Below, in pieces: positions 53,442 through 64,000 of a stretch of 64,000 nt of DNA. Source of the DNA: Rhodomicrobium lacus. GTDB taxonomy: Bacteria; Pseudomonadota; Alphaproteobacteria; Rhizobiales; Rhodomicrobiaceae. Each line of letters begins with the position of its first letter. The first letter of the stretch is position 1. Position numbers and translations under genes: made by a program. Location of the stretch: contig NZ_RZNF01000012.1 of NCBI RefSeq assembly GCF_003992725.1, positions 682,001 to 746,000 of the forward strand, in the 5' to 3' direction. The notes below the pieces were generated by a model that saw only the letters and a program-made list of their open reading frames with translations, searched no databases and had not been told where the DNA came from.

Positions 53442-53504
53442 GCCGGTTCCTCCGCTGGACGGGTTTACCTCGCTTTTCCCGCGAAGCGCGGCGCGGGTCA
53501 AGCG

Positions 53505-54515
53505 TCAGTGGCCTCCCACTTCCGCCGCGTGCAATACAGACCCGAAAGCGCTACGGGAGTGGGTTGAATGTCGATCGCCCGCATCGCAAGCGGCACATTT
53601 CGTACCTTGCCCGGTGCGGGTTGTTTCATTCAGCATGTCCTGCAAATGTTCAAGAACGATGCGCACTGCGGGGTGGCACGCGTCCGAGAATCTTGCCCAT
53701 AGCCCATGATCCGGGGGCGTCTGATAATCAGCCAGGACGCGCTGCACCTTTCCTGAGCCGAGTTCCTCTTCCAGGCCGAGGGGATCGACAAGTCCGATAC
53801 CGATGTCAGCGAGAATTGCCTGCTGGGCGACCTGGGTCGAATTCGTCTTCAGGCTGGCGATCGGGTGGTACTCTTCTGTTCCAGCCGACCCCGTCACGGT
53901 CCAGATGGGATCCTTTCCAACTATAAGCAAATGTTGGCGAAGATCCGCAATCGCGACGGGACAGCCGTTCGCTCCCAGGTAACGCGTCGAGGCCAGGAAA
54001 ACTTGCGGCGTAGCCGCAAGTCTTCTTGTCTGGCCGTCCTCACGAGAACGGCCCGTCCACAGCCAGACTTCGGTGGCGGCGCACTGTTGAGGCGGTTGCT
54101 CGAAATCATCGGCTTCGATATGCAGATCAATGCGCGGATGCTGGCGGCGCAAGGAAACGAACAACGGACCGACGACACGGGCAGCGAGTTCTTCGGACCC
54201 CACGATGCGAATAGCGCATTTCACGGTCGCCCCAGCCCACGCCATTATGGCTTCCGCTTCCTTTACCTCCTGAACGATCCGCTGCGCTCGCTCGTAAAAC
54301 TCGAGACCGGCGAGTGTCGGACTTGTGTGGCGTGTCGTTCGATGCAGAAGGCGGGCCTGCAGACGATGTTCGAGCCGAAGTATGGACTTCGAAATCGTGG
54401 GCGTAGATAGGCCGAGTTTCACTCCGGCCGCCTGCATCGATCCCTCATCGATACAGGCGACGAAATGTTCCAGACAGGCGGCGGTGTTGCCTTGCGACCA
54501 GCTTCGTCTCTTCAT
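53505..54515 (-). CDS. LysR-family regulator at the end of the pilus cluster
   Basis: A 336-residue LysR-type regulator: HTH residues about 9-70 (AACLEHFVACIDEGSMQAAGVKLGLSTPTISKSILRLEHRLQARLLHRTTRHTSPTLAG) and the effector domain. The C-terminal ~35 residues (TRTGQGTKCAACDAGDRHSTHSRSAFGS) are an unusual polar extension with two cysteines. The ATG at 54515 is chosen because it is 16 bp after the stop of the pilus accessory gene. Same strand and short spacing suggest it is in the pilus transcript and may regulate it. Confidence 0.87.
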   Translation of the reverse strand: MKRRSWSQGNTAACLEHFVACIDEGSMQAAGVKLGLSTPTISKSILRLEHRLQARLLHRTTRHTSPTLAGLEFYERAQRIVQEVKEAEAIMAWAGATVKCAIRIVGSEELAARVVGPLFVSLRRQHPRIDLHIEADDFEQPPQQCAATEVWLWTGRSREDGQTRRLAATPQVFLASTRYLGANGCPVAIADLRQHLLIVGKDPIWTVTGSAGTEEYHPIASLKTNSTQVAQQAILADIGIGLVDPLGLEEELGSGKVQRVLADYQTPPDHGLWARFSDACHPAVRIVLEHLQDMLNETTRTGQGTKCAACDAGDRHSTHSRSAFGSVLHAAEVGGH

Positions 54516-54531
54516 ACCTGCCCCATTTAAG

Positions 54532-54906
54532 CTAGAGAGCGACGCCAACGGACACGGCTTTCAGCACTTTTTTCTCGGTTATCTCAAGGCATCCGGGTTC
54601 GAGTTCGAAGCAGCGCGACTTGGTCGTCAGGTGCAGATTGTAGCCAATCTCCGTGTTAGCGAGAAGGCCGTCTTCAAAGGAAGCCTGTGCCTGCCTCAAC
54701 TGGAGGGTGACGAAGGAGACGTTTTCCGCACGCGGGTTGACTGAAACCTTGTTCTCCAGAATTTTCGCTCCCTCGAAAGCGTGCAGTTCTGAAACGCTCG
54801 CCGCGCTCAGGACGAGGTTCGGATTGGCCTTGTAATAGATCGGCAGATTATAGCCGGCAGCGATTATAGCGGCGCAGCCAAGAAACGTACCAGGATAAAA
54901 ACGCAT
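54532..54906 (-). CDS. Unrecognised small secreted protein, last gene of pilus operon
   Basis: A 124-residue protein. The N-terminus has a hydrophobic segment (YPGTFLGCAAIIAAGYNLPIYY) that looks like a signal peptide or anchor. The rest is beta-like and polar with two cysteines near the C-terminus (SRCFELEPGCLEI), which could form a disulfide. The ATG at 54906 follows a strong AGGAGG. It lies 23 bp after the tip adhesin gene on the same strand, so it is probably co-transcribed. I do not recognise the family; it has neither the pilin nor the chaperone signature. A pilus assembly or biofilm accessory role is only inferred from position. Confidence 0.7.
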   Translation of the reverse strand: MRFYPGTFLGCAAIIAAGYNLPIYYKANPNLVLSAASVSELHAFEGAKILENKVSVNPRAENVSFVTLQLRQAQASFEDGLLANTEIGYNLHLTTKSRCFELEPGCLEITEKKVLKAVSVGVAL

Positions 54907-54929
54907 GACTTCACTCCTCCTACACACAC

Positions 54930-55769
54930 CTAAAGATCAGACGCGATATGAACCGTGATCACGTCCTTGTAGAGACCTGCCAGCTTGTCTGCCGTGTCAC
55001 CGATCGTGACATTCAACCGACGGCTTGATTCACCCGCCGGGCCGTTAACACGCCAGATCGCACCCTTTTTGAGTTGCGAAGATTGTCCATCGATTGTCAC
55101 CACATAGGGAATGGAGGTGCTGTCGCCCGGCGGGCTTCCTTCTCGTATCAAGGCGCCGTTTTCCGCCTGAATTTCGAGACGATGATTTTGAGTGCTGCGC
55201 ATTTGCAGCACGACAGCTTTCGAACGGAGTTTCAGATCATCGATTTCGAGAGTTGCCCGCAAGCCGGAGCCTGCAACATTGATTTCAAAAACCGGAGGAA
55301 CGACGCAGTGGATGTCCACCTCGGTCTGGTCGAGGAGCGTCGTCCTGGCCTGCTCGGCAGCAAGAGCGAATCCGATTTTCTTGGTCAGCTTGCCTGCCAG
55401 CGATTGCTGGCCCCGCGCCACCGACAGCCGCAAAGGCAGCTTGATGCTCTGGCCCGGCGCAACTATGGGGGTCTGAATGGTGAGGCCGCTCGAATCCGCT
55501 GCCGACGGAGCTCTTTGGCCCGAGATGGTGAAATCGATGTTGCCAAACTGAAGCGGCAGATAGCGATCGGGGATCCAGAGCCGATAGGCGCAGGATTCGG
55601 TTCCCGTGTTTTGTACCTGAATGCTGAGTTGTTGATGCCCGTCAAGAGCCGAGAACGGATTGTAGACGAGCGTGCGGCGCGCGGACAACGCGTCTATCTT
55701 GCCGGTGCAGGCCAACGAGGGGGTTAGCCCACAAAACATCGCAAGCACAAGCATGAACGCCGTTCTCAT
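54930..55769 (-). CDS. Two-domain spore-coat-U tip adhesin of archaic chaperone-usher pilus (CsuE-like)
   Basis: A 279-residue secreted protein with a signal peptide (MRTAFMLVLAMFCGLTPSLA). It has a first domain of about 130 residues (SARRTLVYNPFSALDGHQQLSIQVQ, two cysteines) and a second domain with the archaic pilin ending (RRLNVTIGDTADKLAGLYKDVITVHIA). It has the length and two-domain form of a tip adhesin such as CsuE, which binds abiotic surfaces through hydrophobic loops. The ATG overlaps the usher stop (ATGA), so expression is coupled. Confidence 0.82.
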   Translation of the reverse strand: MRTAFMLVLAMFCGLTPSLACTGKIDALSARRTLVYNPFSALDGHQQLSIQVQNTGTESCAYRLWIPDRYLPLQFGNIDFTISGQRAPSAADSSGLTIQTPIVAPGQSIKLPLRLSVARGQQSLAGKLTKKIGFALAAEQARTTLLDQTEVDIHCVVPPVFEINVAGSGLRATLEIDDLKLRSKAVVLQMRSTQNHRLEIQAENGALIREGSPPGDSTSIPYVVTIDGQSSQLKKGAIWRVNGPAGESSRRLNVTIGDTADKLAGLYKDVITVHIASDL

Positions 55770-58273
55770 GACGCACACCGCTGGGTGAGAAGGCCCGCAT
55801 CAAAAATGCCCACGGTTTTTTCCGGGACCGTCAGTTGAAAGCACTGCGCCGTATCTCCCAGCATCTCGATACGCCAGCGGCCCGGTTTCAGTCCCTCGAC
55901 GGCAAAGCGGCCGCCGCGGTTCGTAAAAAGCGCGACCTTACGGGGATCGGGAACGCCGTCTTCTCTCGCAAGCCCGCTTAGAAGCGAAAGGGGTTGTCCC
56001 TCCGCCTCAAGGCTTCCGACCGCCAACACGCTGTAGTCGGATCCGACTTTGATGGTGTAGCCGCTCTTGTATTGCGGGCGCACATCGATAACGCCCGTAC
56101 CGAGATCGTAACCTTCAGGCGCCCCTTCCACATCGAGAGGCAACTGGGAATGAGAGTATGAAGGGATATCGGACACGAGCGCCGGACCCAGAAGGTCGGA
56201 TGCAGCGCGTGCGGGAGCATCCCCGGTCTTCACTCGGACAGAAGCATCGGAAAGCGATTCATGCGCGGTGACGATCGCGAAGCTGTCGGTGACGGTTCGA
56301 CCGACGGCCACCTGACCGTCCGCAAATGCGATCGCCCCCCCTGCGGAAACCGTGCTGACGTCGTTCACCACACCCCGGTTCAGGCCGTAGACGCGCCGCG
56401 ACCGGCTGGCGGAAACGTCGAACCGGGTGTCGGAATAGGCGGCACTCAGGTCAACCTGGCTTTCCGGGTCGCCGCCGGTTACGGCGCTCGGCATCTTTTC
56501 GATATCGGCCTTTATCGCGTATCGGCCGCTGTCCGTTTCGCCCGCAGTGGAGACGCCGAGGACGGAAGTTCCATGGAGACCGTCCTGCGTGAATGCGATT
56601 TCCGTATCCTTGCCCGCCCGGATATTCAGGCGTCCCATCACAGTCCACGACGGCTGATAGTCCTCGGTCAGCAAATTCGTCGTGTGATCGCGGGACAAGG
56701 ATAGCGACCAGTTGACATTGGGGCGAACGGCCTTCGACACGGTGATGCCGCCGCCAAGGCGATCCGAGGTATAGGCCGATCCCACAGCCGCGTTCGCCGA
56801 GAGAGACAAGGTGTAATCGTCGGGAAGCTCCAGACTGTAGAAGCCGTTCACGGAGAACCCATCGAGGCCTTCAGACGTCGAAAAGATGGAGGTAAAGCCC
56901 GCGCTCCTGTACTCGGCGGCGAGTTGAAACGAGCCGGGAATACTCCACTTCCTCAAAAGCGTCTCGGGGCTGTAGGTCAATGCAGTGGCAAACCCGCCAT
57001 CACCGTTCCAGTCCTTGCTTACGGCGAATTCGGCTGCGACCCGGCCAAGCCACAACGGAGAGATCGCCATGATGCCCGCCATCGCGGACCGGGAATCGAC
57101 CTGGGCGTGGAGGGTTCCGGTCAAGTCCTCCGTGAGGCCCAGCCGGTAATAGCCGGTCGCCGCCGGTTCGCTCCAGTAATAGTGCATGCGGTTCAGCCCG
57201 GAGAGGCTCTTGTAACCCGCCGAAAAGCCCCAGTCGCTGATGCCCGGCATCAGCAACGCGTAATCATAGAACTGAGAGAAGTTGAGAGTGGTTCGCTTCC
57301 CTGTGTCGTCGGTGATTTCGAGAACGACGACGTTCTCACCGCTTCTGAGGGGCAATTCGCTGATATCGTGATCGCCCGGCTGCATCTGAAGACGACGAAC
57401 AACCTGCCCGTTGACGACGATATCGACATCGGACGGCCTTTCCAGCCGGAATGAGCGTTGGCCCGTGGGACGAACGCTCTTCTGAGGCTGGATCTTGTCG
57501 TAGCTTTTCTGGATCGATACGCCAAAGAAACTGCCGCCACCCTGTATACCTGCCGTCGGAGGCGTAACGTCGCCGGCGATGTAGCGAAGCGCATTCTCGG
57601 CATCGTCGTAGACGGCCCGGGTTCCTTGGCGCATGGCAACGCCGTTTGAGGTCGCCGCCTCTGTTTCAATAACGAGATTCATGACACGAACGGCCGACGA
57701 GAACCCGAAGCCTTGCGAGAACTCCCCGCGTTTCGAGCCTGTGTTCGCCGTCGAATACTGGGCACCGGCGGTTACGTTCATATATCCCGAATATACGGCG
57801 CGGGGCGCCAGTTGCTCGGGCACGATGGTTTCCGACCCCGCGAGCGAAACGTGCACTCCGGGACGCTGATCGGCGGTCGGGAAAAAGCTGAGCGTCATCT
57901 CTTCGATGTCGAAGGATATCGGAAGACCTGCCTCTTTCAGCGCTTTCACGCTGACGAAGCCGCCGACCGTAGGTAGCGCTCTGACAGCCGCGATAATTTC
58001 CGGCTTGAGGACCGGCGCCGCCAGCTTCAGGAAAGTTTCGTGATCTAGAAAGTTCAGGCTTTCTCCTGCCAGTTGGGCAGGAATTTCACCCAGGTAAAAG
58101 CGGCCATCCTTCAAAGCGAGGCTGATTGTGTAGACTTGCTTGTCTGTCATCGAATAAGCCGTGCTCGTGGGTTTCGCGGCAATTTCGGTGCGCGAATGGT
58201 TTTCTTGCGCAGTCGTCGCCGTTATGCTGGCGAGTGACATCGCAAGCCCGAAAATGATTGAGCGGCATTGCAT
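55766..58273 (-). CDS. Outer-membrane usher of archaic chaperone-usher pilus (CsuD-like)
   Basis: An 835-residue usher: signal peptide (CRSIIFGLAMSLASITATTA), N-terminal domain (KDGRFYLGEIPAQLA), beta-barrel with plug (DVDIVVNGQVVRRLQMQPGDHDISELPLRSGENVVVLEITDDTGKRTTLN) and C-terminal domains (GREAVEGLKPGRW-like end with a terminal Cys). It forms the pore through which subunits pass and is where the pilus is assembled. The start at 58273 is uncertain; a GTG lies 18 bp upstream. It follows the chaperone gene on the same strand. Confidence 0.9.
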   Translation of the reverse strand: MQCRSIIFGLAMSLASITATTAQENHSRTEIAAKPTSTAYSMTDKQVYTISLALKDGRFYLGEIPAQLAGESLNFLDHETFLKLAAPVLKPEIIAAVRALPTVGGFVSVKALKEAGLPISFDIEEMTLSFFPTADQRPGVHVSLAGSETIVPEQLAPRAVYSGYMNVTAGAQYSTANTGSKRGEFSQGFGFSSAVRVMNLVIETEAATSNGVAMRQGTRAVYDDAENALRYIAGDVTPPTAGIQGGGSFFGVSIQKSYDKIQPQKSVRPTGQRSFRLERPSDVDIVVNGQVVRRLQMQPGDHDISELPLRSGENVVVLEITDDTGKRTTLNFSQFYDYALLMPGISDWGFSAGYKSLSGLNRMHYYWSEPAATGYYRLGLTEDLTGTLHAQVDSRSAMAGIMAISPLWLGRVAAEFAVSKDWNGDGGFATALTYSPETLLRKWSIPGSFQLAAEYRSAGFTSIFSTSEGLDGFSVNGFYSLELPDDYTLSLSANAAVGSAYTSDRLGGGITVSKAVRPNVNWSLSLSRDHTTNLLTEDYQPSWTVMGRLNIRAGKDTEIAFTQDGLHGTSVLGVSTAGETDSGRYAIKADIEKMPSAVTGGDPESQVDLSAAYSDTRFDVSASRSRRVYGLNRGVVNDVSTVSAGGAIAFADGQVAVGRTVTDSFAIVTAHESLSDASVRVKTGDAPARAASDLLGPALVSDIPSYSHSQLPLDVEGAPEGYDLGTGVIDVRPQYKSGYTIKVGSDYSVLAVGSLEAEGQPLSLLSGLAREDGVPDPRKVALFTNRGGRFAVEGLKPGRWRIEMLGDTAQCFQLTVPEKTVGIFDAGLLTQRCAS

Positions 58274-58309
58274 CGGTGCTTGAGCCTGCACAGCGGGATA
58301 TTCAACGTA

Positions 58310-59047
58310 TTACCTCATGATTTTCTCGAGAAAGACTTCTGCGCTAACGCTCCTCGCGTCCGCAGGTAACTGCACCGGAAGCTTGAAGCGCCTCTTCTTC
58401 CCGGGCTGGACGATGCCTATACCTACCGCATGCTCAAGCTCACCCTGGGATAGCGTTTTGGACCAATTGCCGGCACGCAACATGACTGACGCTTCGCTGA
58501 GCTTCGCATGCACGGTTCCGGAGTTGCCCAGAAAAAGGCTGACGTAACGCTTGCCATCCTCCGAGGCGATGCTGCTCGAAAGAACATCGAGGGCTTTCTG
58601 ACCTGTAGCGGGTGCGACATTTGCCACGACGTCGAAATTGAAGACGATCTGAAAGCCGCTCTTCTTCTCCGGCATCGCCACGGGAAGCTGATTGACGGAA
58701 AGAATGTAGGTTTGGCTCTTGTTCAAGGGCGCACCGGCCCACTGAACGCGGAAGACCTGCTTCGAGTGCGGGCGCAACATGCGGCTTGGCGGAAAGATGA
58801 GAAAATCGCTCGCCGCCGGGGTTAGCTGCCGCCCCCCGTCTTCGGAGATTTCCGCGCGAGAAACGACCACCTCGATGGGAACGTCCTTGTCACTGTCATT
58901 GCTGACCAGGATTTGCGCCACCCGCTTCGCCGGATCGCCTGAATTGATTTCGAGTACGAGAGGCGTCACCCCGAGTGCCAGAGCGGGTGCCCCGGTCAAG
59001 GCGAGCATCGCAGAAGCGATCAGCAAACTGGAGAAAAGTACGCGCAT
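58310..59047 (-). CDS. Periplasmic pilus chaperone (CsuC-like)
   Basis: A 245-residue PapD-type chaperone with signal peptide (MRVLFSSLLIASAMLALTGAPALA) and two Ig domains. Domain 1 has the G1-strand edge (PLVLEINSGDPAKRVAQILVSNDSDKDVPIEVVVSRAEISEDG) and the subunit-binding pattern MLRPHSKQVFRVQWAG. It donates a strand to pilins in the periplasm. The ATG at 59047 follows GAGGGTGG. It lies 96 bp after the third pilin and 36 bp before the usher. Confidence 0.9.
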   Translation of the reverse strand: MRVLFSSLLIASAMLALTGAPALALGVTPLVLEINSGDPAKRVAQILVSNDSDKDVPIEVVVSRAEISEDGGRQLTPAASDFLIFPPSRMLRPHSKQVFRVQWAGAPLNKSQTYILSVNQLPVAMPEKKSGFQIVFNFDVVANVAPATGQKALDVLSSSIASEDGKRYVSLFLGNSGTVHAKLSEASVMLRAGNWSKTLSQGELEHAVGIGIVQPGKKRRFKLPVQLPADARSVSAEVFLEKIMR

Positions 59048-59143
59048 ATGTCTACCCACCCTCAAACGTTGCCGCGAAGGGTCTCTTCATGTTGCCCAGT
59101 GCACTTCGATTGAGAAGGACGTGCCCAGCGTCCTGCCCCGGCG

Positions 59144-59749
59144 CTAGAGTTTGGCGCCGATCTGTACAGTTACGGTGTCGGTGTAATTTCCGTTGACGAC
59201 AGGAACGGTGCCGTCTTTCGTGGCGAAGGTCAAAGTGAGGGGCCCCGAGTTGGCTCCGGCAGACTGAAGATTGACACTCCTCGCAGCCTTCGATGTATCG
59301 AGGACGAGATTGCTGATCGATCCCCAATTGGCGGTCACGGTATAGTCGACGCGGCTCAAGAAATCGCCTGCGGCTGCCTGTTTGGCATCGGATGACGTCA
59401 TGCCGCCGTTCTGACTTGAAAGGCTTAGATACGCCTCGTAGTTGCACATCGCCCTGTCGAATTTGAGCGTCAGGGTCGAGCCCTTCACGAACGCCGTCGT
59501 CGAATCGATGAAATCCGTCAAGGTCACGATATTTGAGGAATAGGTGGCGTTGGTAACAGCACCGGCGACCGCGGCCTGCCCCGGAAGTTGGCAAACCTGA
59601 GGGGCGAAGCCTTTGATCTGAAACGTCGTGCTTGCGCTCGAAGTATCGGCGGACTGTGCCGATACTTCGGGCACCGCAAAGGCGATAGCAAGCGCCACCG
59701 AAAGCGTGAAATTGCGGGTCGTTCTTTCAAAGATTACTGGTACTGACAC
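59144..59749 (-). CDS. Spore-coat-U domain pilin (CsuA/B-like)
   Basis: A 201-residue secreted subunit: signal peptide (TLSVALAIAFAVPEVSA), one paired-cysteine SCPU domain (APQVCQLPG, AMCNYEAY), and the C-terminal pilin end (VPVVNGNYTDTVTVQIGAKL). In archaic pili such subunits polymerise by donor-strand exchange, guided by the chaperone and usher. It is the third gene of the operon, 16 bp after the second pilin gene. Confidence 0.85.
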   Translation of the reverse strand: MSVPVIFERTTRNFTLSVALAIAFAVPEVSAQSADTSSASTTFQIKGFAPQVCQLPGQAAVAGAVTNATYSSNIVTLTDFIDSTTAFVKGSTLTLKFDRAMCNYEAYLSLSSQNGGMTSSDAKQAAAGDFLSRVDYTVTANWGSISNLVLDTSKAARSVNLQSAGANSGPLTLTFATKDGTVPVVNGNYTDTVTVQIGAKL

Positions 59750-59765
59750 GGCCGGCGCCCTTTTC

Positions 59766-60350
59766 TCAAAGCAGGGGTGTAAAAACGATAACTAGATTGT
59801 CGGTGAACGTGCCAGCCACGACAGGCGCATCTGCTGCGTTTGCGCTGGCAATCGAGATATCGAGACGAAGATCTCCGGAGACTGCGCCAGGGGCGACGAC
59901 ACTCGGGGATGTCTGCCCCTGAACGCCTTCAGTCTGCAAAACGCTCACCGACGATGCCCACGAGATGCTGGCGCTATAGTCGATGTGCTGAATGAACTCG
60001 GAGCTGGCTTCCGTTTTTATGAGAGGTACCAGGCCGCCGTTCTTCGAGCTGACGGTCATGGTATGCGGGTGATTGCACATCCCCTTCAGCGTGACCGTAA
60101 TGGAGGCCGAGGTGAGCTTGGCATTGAGATCGGTCAGTTGAGTGACGCTCAGAACATTCTGCGCCCCCGAACTGGCCGCAACTGCCATGTTCGACGCCTG
60201 CCTCGCTTGGGCAGGCTGGAAGCTGCAGACTGGCTGCGCCTTGCCGCGCAAAGCGAATGCCTGGCTTGCGCCGTCTTCGGCATCGACGCACGAAGTCCCA
60301 CTGAGGGAAATGGCCGTCACTACACACACATATCGACTCAACACGCACAC
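59766..60350 (-). CDS. Spore-coat-U domain pilin (minor subunit suspected)
   Basis: A 194-residue secreted subunit with signal peptide (SRYVCVVTAISLSGTSCVDA, with two cysteines in the signal region). It has a paired-cysteine SCPU domain (QPVCSFQP, GMCNHPH) and the pilin end (PVVAGTFTDNLVIVFTPLL). It is the second of three pilins, 89 bp after the first. A separate promoter in that gap is possible because the gap is A/T-rich. Confidence 0.83.
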   Translation of the reverse strand: MCVLSRYVCVVTAISLSGTSCVDAEDGASQAFALRGKAQPVCSFQPAQARQASNMAVAASSGAQNVLSVTQLTDLNAKLTSASITVTLKGMCNHPHTMTVSSKNGGLVPLIKTEASSEFIQHIDYSASISWASSVSVLQTEGVQGQTSPSVVAPGAVSGDLRLDISIASANAADAPVVAGTFTDNLVIVFTPLL

Positions 60351-60439
60351 GACGCGGCCTGCTCATTATATACATTTTGTTGAAAATATTTCTTTTGCGG
60401 CGCATGTCAACCCAAATGAGGTGTAGGTTTTACCGCACC

Positions 60440-61033
60440 TCACAAACGCGGCGAAACCCGAAAGGCGAGCACGTCGCGGTAGGCGCCAGCCAGCGGCACA
60501 CCTTCTCCAGAATCCCAATGAAATCCGAGCGTTAGGCTTTTGCTGAGAGCCGATGAATTTGGCGGGGTCTCGGACACACATGCCGAAGTTCCGTCGATCA
60601 TGTTGTCGGAATGGCACAGGTCAGCAACTGCACCCGCAGAGGTGTCAAGGTTGTATGACAGCGTGTATGGAACCTTGGCTAGAAACGGGGCGCGGACGGG
60701 CTTGCTGGTGCCCAAAGCGAGGCCACCGTTCTGAGAACTGAATACAAACTTGAAACGCGAGTTACACGAAAGCCCGATCTTCACGGACACAGACCCACTC
60801 TTCGAAAGGTCACCGAAATCGATAACCGGACTGGTGTTTGAAATCGAGCAGGAGGGCTTAACAGTGGTAACAACGGTGATCGCGATGTCTTGACTGCCGC
60901 CCTTCGCGTCTGAAACGGTCATCCCCGCGCAACTGACACCAACAAGGCCGACGGCCATCGCCACGCGAGGCGAACGAGCGGCTCGGCCACTGCGGCCGAT
61001 TATCTTGCTCGATGGGCGTCGGCATCCCGACAT
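60440..61033 (-). CDS. Spore-coat-U domain pilin (CsuA/B-like), first gene
   Basis: A 197-residue protein with a long, Arg-rich N-terminus before a hydrophobic signal (MAVGLVGVSCAGMTVSDA). An ATG at 60958 would give a more usual signal peptide but has no clear ribosome site. The SCPU domain has cysteines in KPSCSISN and GLSCNSRF, and the C-terminal pilin end is LAGAYRDVLAFRVSPRL. It heads the pilus operon and is a good candidate for the main subunit. Confidence 0.85.
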   Translation of the reverse strand: MSGCRRPSSKIIGRSGRAARSPRVAMAVGLVGVSCAGMTVSDAKGGSQDIAITVVTTVKPSCSISNTSPVIDFGDLSKSGSVSVKIGLSCNSRFKFVFSSQNGGLALGTSKPVRAPFLAKVPYTLSYNLDTSAGAVADLCHSDNMIDGTSACVSETPPNSSALSKSLTLGFHWDSGEGVPLAGAYRDVLAFRVSPRL

Positions 61034-61565
61034 AGCGACGCTGGCCTTTCTGCTTGAGCGAACCGATATCGCCAGGGAGCAGCTTGCTCCCTGACCAAGG
61101 TAGCTGAGCTGAAGGACATGTCAATGAGCGCTGTCGCCTCAGCAGGCGGTGCCTCAATCTGGCCTAAATTGAGATTGCCGACGTTTTCCACAGCCGCGCA
61201 ATCCGCTTTTATAACAGCGCCTTACGCCGCAGGTGGCCGGATTTAGGCGAGAATGTGGCGACTTTCGGGCAAAAATTCGGTTGTCAGCATTTCGAAAAAA
61301 ATTTAACGGTGTTGATAGCGACACACCGAAGGAGGGAGCAGTGAACAATGTAATCAAGCATTCGCAACGTTTTTCTTGCGTGAACCAACTGAGCATTTTC
61401 GACCTGGTTCTCGCCACCCGTTGCGCCCAGTGAAGCTATACGGACAGCCGTTAGCGTTGCTCTTCCTCACTACTTGACGAATACCCGCCATAACCCGCCA
61501 TTTGCATCGTAATCTGCCACGTTCTCAGCGTAAAGGGAACGATAGGTCTTGCGTACGGAGTTGAC
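61034..61565. other. Intergenic region upstream of the pilus operon and XRE-like gene
   Basis: A 532-bp region between the divergent pilus operon and the XRE-like gene. It is A/T-richer in places and should hold the pilus promoter. It contains one small frame with a very strong ribosome binding site (listed at 61341). Nothing else was recognised. Confidence 0.5.
61341..61433 (+). CDS. Candidate 30-residue small ORF with strong ribosome binding site
   Basis: GTG-initiated frame encoding 30 residues (Met/Val-Asn-Asn-Val-Ile-Lys... ending ATRCAQ) with AAGGAGGGAGCA directly upstream, an unusually good site for this region. The product is mostly polar with a hydrophobic C-terminal half (LSIFDLVLATRC). 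It could be a small protein or a leader peptide ahead of the XRE-like gene (133 bp further). Not proven. Confidence 0.35.
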   Translation: MNNVIKHSQRFSCVNQLSIFDLVLATRCAQ

Positions 61566-62120
61566 ATGAAGACCGAAGCCTCAATGTACACATCCGCCAG
61601 CTTCTTCGGACTCGCGACTGCGAGCGTGAAGGACGACAACCTGCTCACGTGGATCAAAGATGCAATCTCGTCCGACTGTGATCCTCATATGCAGCAGCAA
61701 GGTATGCTCTCCGAGGGGCTAGCGGGCGAATGGATATTCAAAGTGCGAAATGGAGAGGCCAGCCGAAATCTTGTCTCTTTATCAGAACATCTGTGGGATG
61801 AAGCATTCCTGATTCTGGAAGCCATGGGCCGTATCGAGTTTGCGGTTGGGCTGATGCCCTGGCACGGAAATTTGCTTCTTGACGACAGCTCCTCACGAGC
61901 GATTGCCTTAAGATTGCGGATCGCCCGCCGTATTCTACAAATTGACCCGGAGGTGTTTTATCGCTCCTGCGGTCTGGAGTCAAAGACGGCCGCTGCGTTG
62001 GAGCAAGGCGATGCGCCGTCTCTAGAACAGCTGTTTGCCGTTCTGGATGCAGTTTCCGAGAATTACGACATCCCGTCTGATTGGCTTATGTCTGGCGAGG
62101 CCTGCGAAATCGAAGCCTGA
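61566..62120 (+). CDS. XRE-like regulator, paralogue A
   Basis: A 184-residue protein with a C-terminal HTH-type segment (residues about 115-177: RLRIARRILQIDPEVFYRSCGLESKTAAALEQGDAPSLEQLFAVLDAVSENYDIPSDWLMSGE), which has the Cro/CI-like five-helix pattern with the usual DWLMSGE end. The N-terminal ~110 residues are of unknown fold, with LSEGLAGEW, HLWDEAF and MPWHGNLLLDD as notable motifs. The same motifs recur in the convergent gene 62732-63295, so the two are diverged paralogues. The ATG has GGAG seven bases upstream. Confidence 0.72.
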   Translation: MKTEASMYTSASFFGLATASVKDDNLLTWIKDAISSDCDPHMQQQGMLSEGLAGEWIFKVRNGEASRNLVSLSEHLWDEAFLILEAMGRIEFAVGLMPWHGNLLLDDSSSRAIALRLRIARRILQIDPEVFYRSCGLESKTAAALEQGDAPSLEQLFAVLDAVSENYDIPSDWLMSGEACEIEA

Positions 62121-62133
62121 AACCTTCAGGCCG

Positions 62134-62787
62134 GGCGCCACGGCTCACGATTTGCGGCCCGGCGAATTGAGGCTGCGCCCCCCCACGGTGCGCAGCCTCC
62201 CCCCTCGTAAACTCATCACCCGAGCAGGCGGCTGAACGGGCAGCAGAGCCATTCGCTATGCCTCGGATCAGCCAATACTCGCGAAATACTGAACGCTTGG
62301 CGCCAAGGCTCACGATTTGCAGCCCGGCGAATTGAGGCTGCGCCCCCCCACGGTGCGCAGCCTCCCCCTCGTAAACTCATCACCCGAGCAGGCGGCTGAA
62401 CGGGCAGCAGAGCCATTCGCTATGCCTCGGATCAGCCAATACTCGTGAATACTGAACGCTTGGCGCCACGGCTCGCGCGTTGCGGCCCGGCAAATTGAGG
62501 TTGCGCCGCCCTCGGCGCGCAGCCTCCGTCCCAATGGACACGTCCCCCGAATAGCAGGCCGAACGGGCAACAAAGCCTTTCGCTATGCCTCGGATCAGCC
62601 GTTACTCGGGGTTACTAGACGCTTGCTGCCACGGCTCGCGATTTGCGGCCCGGCGAATTGAGGTTGCGCCGCCCACGGCGCGCACCCTCGTCCTCGTCAA
62701 CTCTTCTCCCGGAGAGCGACCCGGGTGGGCATTACAGCTCCTCCGCAATACCCCAGATCAGCCAGTGCTCGGGAATGCCCGCACGCT
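62134..62787. repeat. Four-copy tandem array of ~163-bp units
   Basis: Four contiguous copies: 62134-62298 (165 bp), 62299-62461 (163), 62462-62624 (163) and 62625-62787 (163). Copies 1 and 2 are nearly identical; copies 3 and 4 are more diverged. Each unit has a GC-rich hairpin (for example GGCTGCGC ... GCGCAGCC) and ends with a stretch matching the last ~18 codons of the gene at 62732. Copy 4 overlaps that real gene end; copies 1-3 hold decayed versions (for example REYWLIRGIANG beside IPEHWLIWGIAEEL). Confidence 0.85.
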
Positions 62788-63295
62788 CGGCATATCTTTC
62801 CAGAAGCTCGATCATCAGTTCATCGAGCTCAAGTTTCCTGCTCGCCGCGCTTTTCGCCAGGCGGGCCTGAAGACTGGAAATATCGAGGGCCATTGCGGCC
62901 GGCTGCGCAGCAGCGGCGCGCAGAAGGCTGAGGCGCACGAGAACGGCTCCGGGCGAGAGAACATCCGGCAGAACGTCGCCGTTCCAGACCCTGAGGTCGG
63001 GCTGCGCCCTGACCAAGCCGCGCGAGCCCAACCCTATGAAGACATCGTCCCACAAGGCTTCCGGTATCGGGCCCGGATAGCTGACCGTGTTTGCGTTTTT
63101 CAGCGTAGCAATCTGCCATTCACCAGCGACATAGCCAGCCGAAAGCGGCCTCTGCCGCAAATGTGGCATCCATCCGGCAGCGGTGGCACCCTCTATCCAT
63201 GCATCAGCGTCGATCGCGTATTTATTAACGCTGGAGCGAGTTGAGTGCACATGAAAGCCGACTTCATCGGCAAAAGCGGAAATGCGGAGAGACAT
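62732..63295 (-). CDS. XRE-like regulator, paralogue B
   Basis: A 187-residue protein convergent with paralogue A. It shares LSAGYVAGEW, ALWDDVF, RVWNGDVLPDVLSPGAVLVRLSLLRA and an HTH-like C-terminus with the end GIPEHWLIWGIAEEL, but its HTH middle is more degenerate. Its 3' end is duplicated in the tandem array. The start has only a weak ribosome site. Function unknown; a DNA-binding regulator is the best guess from the fold. Confidence 0.72.
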   Translation of the reverse strand: MSLRISAFADEVGFHVHSTRSSVNKYAIDADAWIEGATAAGWMPHLRQRPLSAGYVAGEWQIATLKNANTVSYPGPIPEALWDDVFIGLGSRGLVRAQPDLRVWNGDVLPDVLSPGAVLVRLSLLRAAAAQPAAMALDISSLQARLAKSAASRKLELDELMIELLERYAERAGIPEHWLIWGIAEEL

Positions 63296-63530
63296 GCTTT
63301 TTTTTCGCGTTTGAGTGACCAGAACTCGACATTGATAAGCTAGGTTGAACGCATTACTCGTCTGTTAGAAGTCGACAAATCTTCCATTAGTTTAGCGAGC
63401 ACATTCACCAGTCGTTTACTTTTATTCCATTCTTGGGCGACACCGTTTCTCTCACTACTTGCTGCGGCAGTCCGTTGTGCTTTATGTTTTGCACAATCTG
63501 TGGTTCATTGGGGGTGGCAAAGAGGCAAGG

Positions 63531-63797
63531 ATGACGAGTGCTCCATTTTCGGGAGTCGACGTTTTGCCCCTCACAGCAACGTTGACGAACCTCCCGTTCC
63601 AGTCGATCGCCCTGCTCGCGCTCGGTGCCTATATCGTTGTTGCCACTTTGAAGGTCCTTTGGGAGTGCCGAACGATCATTCTGATGATTACGGTCGTCGG
63701 GCTTCTGATGGCGAATGGTGATCGTGGGCAACTTCGTTTGAACGACTTGAGCCAACAAAGCCTTTCTCAGTTATGGGAGAAGCTAACGCGACCATGA
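63531..63797 (+). CDS. Small membrane protein
   Basis: An 88-residue protein with one long or two short hydrophobic stretches (SIALLALGAYIVVATLKVLW and IILMITVVGLLMA), and a polar C-terminus. The ATG at 63531 follows AGAGGCAAGG. No family was recognised. It is convergent with the fliP end; a flagellar link is not shown by sequence. Confidence 0.5.
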   Translation: MTSAPFSGVDVLPLTATLTNLPFQSIALLALGAYIVVATLKVLWECRTIILMITVVGLLMANGDRGQLRLNDLSQQSLSQLWEKLTRP

Positions 63798-63856
63798 CGG
63801 TTCACCTCGTGGTTTGGCAACTGGTAATGCACGTATTGCACAACTTACGATTGATC

Positions 63857-64000
63857 CTAGTTGAACGAGCGAACGAGATTCCCGACCAGAAGATTCCAGC
63901 CGTCGATCAGGATGAAGAACAGGACCTTGAAAGGCAGCGAGACCGTAGTTGGAGCGACCATCATCATGCCCATGGCCATCAGCACTGTTGAAGCGATGAG
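63857..64000 (-). CDS. fliP: Flagellar biosynthesis protein FliP, C-terminal end
   Basis: The last 47 residues of FliP, whose gene begins outside the window: [47 protein letters not shown] and stop. The MAMGMMM segment and the DGWNLLVG(N/S)LVRSF ending are the FliP/SctR family hallmark, with the alphaproteobacterial form of the tail. FliP is part of the export gate of the flagellar type III apparatus. A type III injectisome homologue (SctR) is less likely. Confidence 0.85.

Follow-up and report, generated by a model that had tools for sequence, protein, structure and literature searches.

Two convergent paralogous genes of Rhodomicrobium lacus, candidate local regulators, flank a tandemly duplicated gene end at a rearrangement breakpoint

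In the genome of Rhodomicrobium lacus, two homologous genes, here called A and B, converge on a tandem array made from copies of the 3' end of gene B, and a synteny breakpoint lies within this array. We consider it rather probable that A and B are genus-restricted local regulators joined by a rearrangement, and that the terminator broken at their junction, together with the array duplicated from it, acts as a leaky stop. The genes belong to a window of 64,000 nt (C12:682001-746000), which is the whole stretch of DNA analyzed, from a genome of 3.88 Mb (G000) whose closest genomes are those of Rhodomicrobium. The comparison set consisted of five genus genomes with one genome per species, G000-G004, where G001 (a single 4.01-Mb contig) is probably R. 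vannielii, G002 is R. udaipurense JA643, G003 is the Hyphomicrobiales MAG fen_921, and G004 is Rhodomicrobium sp. Az07. Because the genus is represented by five genomes only, the gene linkage and co-occurrence described below rest on few events.

Gene A (61566-62120, forward strand) encodes a protein of 184 amino acids, and gene B (62732-63295, reverse strand) one of 187. The initial annotation had taken them for convergent paralogues; both open reading frames were recovered, and pairwise alignment showed the two proteins to be significantly similar, with 26% identity over 155 aligned residues (E=1e-15). Both contain the motifs AGEW, LWD(E/D)xF and W(H/N)G as well as a C-terminal (D/H)WL, and 19 columns are invariant in an alignment of eight family members. 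In the tree, B is placed apart from the A-like group, and the branches are long. Orthologues of A were identified in G001 and G004 and a more distant homologue in G003, with none in G002, while B is present in three of the five genomes (G000, G001, and G002). The dN/dS of B against the sister species is ~0.07, and B is thus under strong purifying selection. A second, diverged family member was observed in the MAG G003, at the start of a 3.5-kb contig (C50; L022 2-523). The inverted repeat GCCTGAA-ACC-TTCAGGC (62115-62131) spans the stop codon of A and is a possible terminator of this gene lacking a T-tract.

The N-terminal domain common to A and B (residues ~20-105 in A), characterized by AGEW, LWDExF, and WHGN, had not been recognized in the initial annotation, and it gave no match in Pfam, NCBIfam, or PHROGs; the domain is unclassified. 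Searches of genomes from the order (397), the class (385), and the phylum (398) did not find it outside the genus. In the class and phylum sets, the N-terminal profile produced a good match in the window genome only, all others being short and weak, and a scan of genome_contigs, based on a single short pattern, returned Rhodomicrobium and fen_921 only. The A/B family seems to be restricted to Rhodomicrobium.

The label "XRE-like" that had been given to the pair holds for A, but a helix-turn-helix (HTH) signature was not detected in B. Pfam scans of A and B returned no family up to E=1, and within the A/B family a single member matched a Pfam HTH (HTH_19, E=0.0022). Outside the genus, a profile of the eight family members recovered only five weak matches, XRE-type proteins of five genomes, with E-values below 1e-3 and over positions 99-179; HTH_3 is carried by all four of these that were scanned. 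The best solved relative was the 434 repressor (E=0.031), and a transcriptional-repressor PHROG was hit by five of the eight members, with E=2.2e-4 at best. The structural model of A (pLDDT 78.5) has helices at residues 110-176, and its C-terminal domain resembles HipB, C.BclI, and P22 C2 with probabilities of 0.99-1.00, but with E-values of 0.06 and above. At the level of profile and fold prediction, the C-terminal half of A (residues ~108-178) is thus a putative XRE/434-like HTH. For B, no HTH was found by Pfam, and its low-confidence model (pLDDT 66.5) gave no meaningful fold match in the PDB; this protein may have given up classical DNA binding.

Gene A is divergent from a spore-coat-U/chaperone-usher operon on the reverse strand. 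The first gene of the operon (60440-61033) encodes an SCPU domain and is the predicted target of A; it is followed by the PapD-like chaperone gene (58310-59065) and the usher gene (55766-58291). The Pfam-type domains of the operon were found with E-values of 5.1e-9 (Usher), 1.1e-5 (PapD_N), and 8.9e-5 (SCPU). Homologues of A lie divergently beside such an operon in G000, G001, G003, and G004, and the usher occurs in these four genomes and not in G002, a pattern identical to that of the A homologues. Gene A is therefore most likely, as we infer from its position, a local, divergently transcribed regulator of the neighboring fimbrial operon. No operator common to the A/fimbrial intergenic regions was identified, these regions being too diverged to show one. 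At the far end of the operon, a LysR-type regulator gene (53505-54548) is a rival candidate regulator.

Gene B is likewise accompanied by a divergent gene, encoding a predicted membrane protein of 88 amino acids (63531-63797, forward strand). This gene was found exactly in the B-bearing genomes G000, G001, and G002, and in all three it adjoins a fliP-like gene recognized by eye. B is most likely a partner or a regulator of the 88-aa protein gene. A more far-reaching proposal, which we regard as speculative and unlikely, is that A and B represent a novel family of regulators equipped with a sensing or dimerization domain of its own (AGEW...LWDExF...WHGN); this family would control the spore-coat-U fimbriae of Rhodomicrobium, and its B branch would have lost DNA binding and pair with the small membrane protein.

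Between the two genes, Tandem Repeats Finder reported one array at 62134-62711 (period 163, 3.5 copies, 86% matches, score 790), which comprises four units if the B-proximal copy running into B is counted. Units 1 (62134-62298), 2 (62299-62461), and 3 (62462-62624) were delimited by the repeat search and unit alignment, and unit 4 (62625-62795) is the original copy, its right part being the true 3' end of gene B. In each unit, the final ~18 codons of B are followed by a spacer, then by a GC-rich hairpin, and lastly by a ~30-nt tail. Units 1 and 2 are 98% identical, unit 3 shares 78-80% with these two, and unit 4 shares 74-75% with the others. As had been proposed from the sequence, units 1-3 carry a decayed version of the end of B, reading WLIRGIANG in units 1 and 2 and RLIRGIAKG in unit 3, where B itself has WLIWGIAEEL; the two final codons and the stop codon are gone, with a 1-nt deletion at that point, and these copies are now non-coding. 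The gene-end piece of unit 3 is weak when taken alone, at least one of 2000 shuffles scoring equally high, and secure within the whole unit. Unit 1, the one farthest from B, matched the single-copy B end and hairpin of G002 with E=1.1e-12, and the relation between the units and the end of B is therefore not due to chance. The array is present in one of the five genomes, the unit occurring as a single copy at the same place in G001 and G002, and no further copies were found in the five genomes besides these single-copy B ends. The tail past the hairpin (62134-62168, and equivalents in units 2-4) is 81-90% identical between units and is not represented in the sister genomes.

The hairpin was located by inverted repeats, folds, and conservation at 62169-62199 in unit 1, with equivalents at 62334-62364, 62497-62526, and 62660-62689. 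In all four units, this GC-rich stem-loop has a folding energy of -22 to -29 kcal/mol, whichever strand is considered. The hairpins of the window are followed by AATTCG or AATTTG only, the T-tract being absent, and a terminator scan called none of the four. G001 and G002 possess just one copy of the B end, spacer, and hairpin, followed by CGCAGCCTCAATTTTTT on the strand of B, and the hairpin with its AATTTTTT is, by its sequence, an ordinary intrinsic terminator of B. Since the sister genomes contain a single B end with spacer and terminator hairpin, the array duplicates the gene end plus the terminator. The earlier description of the array as debris of gene-end duplications was thus correct as to the repeated duplication of the 3' end of B, and too narrow as to content: the coding end makes up only about one third of a unit, the rest being spacer, hairpin, and tail, and the array is more than gene-end debris because it also carries the ancestral terminator hairpin of B.

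Synteny with G001 and G002 breaks at position 62656, at the base of the hairpin. To the right of this point, the window is collinear with both genomes past its end, at 79-85% identity. The collinear stretch measures at least 21 kb in G001; in G002 it reaches the end of the contig after 7.5 kb. To the left, no match to the corresponding place was found in either genome, and the fimbrial operon and A of the window map elsewhere in G001, ~0.7 Mb off. In G001 and G002, an RND transporter gene (L018 6481-9765 and L017 7710-11201) converges on B, and its stop codon overlaps the terminator of B. A search of the window genome for this gene, which could have marked where the rearrangement's second side lies, yielded paralogues of just 22-37% identity and hence no orthologue. 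The position of the breakpoint at the hairpin base, the location of A and the fimbrial region elsewhere in G001, and the lack of an RND orthologue together argue that the rearrangement ended at the terminator and took most of the T-tract with it. It would have placed the A-fimbrial cluster downstream of B and severed the T-tract from the intrinsic terminator of B.

Tandem duplication of the B end and its terminator hairpin would have come next, probably initiated by a 3-bp GGC match and continued by unequal recombination. The unit junctions read ACGCTTGGCGCCACGG, in which GGC is common to B (ACGCTCGGC) and to the left flank (GGCGCCACGG), as we infer would be expected for an illegitimate first duplication. 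The graded identities of units 4 and 3 (75%), 3 and 1 (80%), and 1 and 2 (98%) suggest successive duplications, of which the last was recent. The recombination hot spot that had been suggested for this region has nothing in its favor except some three duplications and a synteny breakpoint that coincide in position; the array represents an ordinary local duplication, at a rearrangement breakpoint, of a gene end with its terminator.

Any evidence for a function of the array comes from the hairpin. In diverged copies, between units as well as between species, the hairpin is 85-94% identical and the spacer 42-64%. The difference between hairpin and spacer is significant in the comparison with G002 (Fisher p=1e-4 for unit 1 and 4e-4 for unit 4), as is that between the hairpin and the gene end plus spacer for units 3 and 4 (p=9e-5), while the hairpin comparison for units 1 and 3 alone is not (p=0.15). 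The stem is nearly invariant, eight of nine pairs being unvarying across six sequences, and it shows no compensatory changes, so that covariation leaves the RNA structure unproven; Rfam gave no match. These data fit a weak multi-hairpin terminator between convergent genes, and the four hairpins probably form a leaky, additive transcription stop.

It is also quite possible that the array is functionless, the product of neutral tandem duplications at the breakpoint that are tolerated between convergent genes, with the likeness of the hairpins being either a remnant or the result of gene conversion. This would be in keeping with the lost T-tract and the negative terminator scan, with the occurrence of the array in one genome of five, and with the near-identity of units 1 and 2 as a sign of recent duplication. 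Gene conversion among units could in part explain why hairpin and tail changed more slowly, and selection on the hairpin alone leaves the conservation of the 30-nt tail unexplained. However, the hairpin also changes more slowly than the spacer and the decayed gene end when compared with the single-copy sister, where conversion between units is impossible, and the stem pairs are kept in all but one position in the six copies. Such neutrality would apply to the array only, and A and B could still be regulators.

We consider it highly unlikely that the two genes are what is left of a mobile element or phage, namely a repressor-like pair with the array as part of an element end. The XRE repressor-like HTH and the top PHROG match, a phage repressor family, would agree with such an origin, as would two features near the A orthologue of G001 (L019 7738-8826 and 10327-12347), a reverse-transcriptase-like ORF with the motif LVNLADDFLLL on its downstream side and an insertion of an IS66-like transposase cassette between it and the fimbrial genes; yet searches of viral contigs, phages, and plasmids turned up no relatives of A or B, neither an integrase nor any other phage gene was recognized among the ORFs of 53500-64000, and the linkage to the fimbrial operon and the flagellar region is stable in several species. 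That A and B form one functional unit, e.g. a sensor/regulator pair with the array as part of it, has their adjacency and homology in its favor and deserves hardly any credence, as A and B lie ~0.7 Mb apart in G001, G002 has B without A and G004 A without B, and the A-B junction is a species-specific breakpoint.

If the preferred reading of two local regulators joined by a rearrangement is true, A is a candidate local regulator of spore-coat-U fimbriae in Rhodomicrobium, and the array is a small example of a terminator that was broken at a rearrangement point, after which the gene end was copied in tandem. The general picture is changed by neither; modest interest attaches to the unclassified N-terminal domain and to the linkage with the fimbrial operon.

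Compared with XRE/HTH_3 regulators of the 434 repressor type, the last 70 residues of A agree in profile and in predicted helical fold, and A ends in the DWLxxG typical of these proteins. It differs in that the HTH sits C-terminally, behind an N-terminal domain outside Pfam, NCBIfam, and PHROGs; moreover, neither A nor B matches any Pfam family, and B is devoid of a recognizable HTH. Caf1R, of the AraC/XylS family, is a local divergent regulator of chaperone-usher fimbriae (PMC9820224). Like regulators of this type, the A gene is divergent from a fimbrial operon and inherited with it, whereas A belongs to another DNA-binding family, the fimbriae are of the spore-coat-U type, and regulation by A is a prediction. 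The array, finally, is related to the intrinsic terminators between convergent genes, as seen from the GC-rich hairpin and T-tract right after B in G001 and G002, but the window has lost the T-tract and contains four such hairpins, along with pieces of the gene end.
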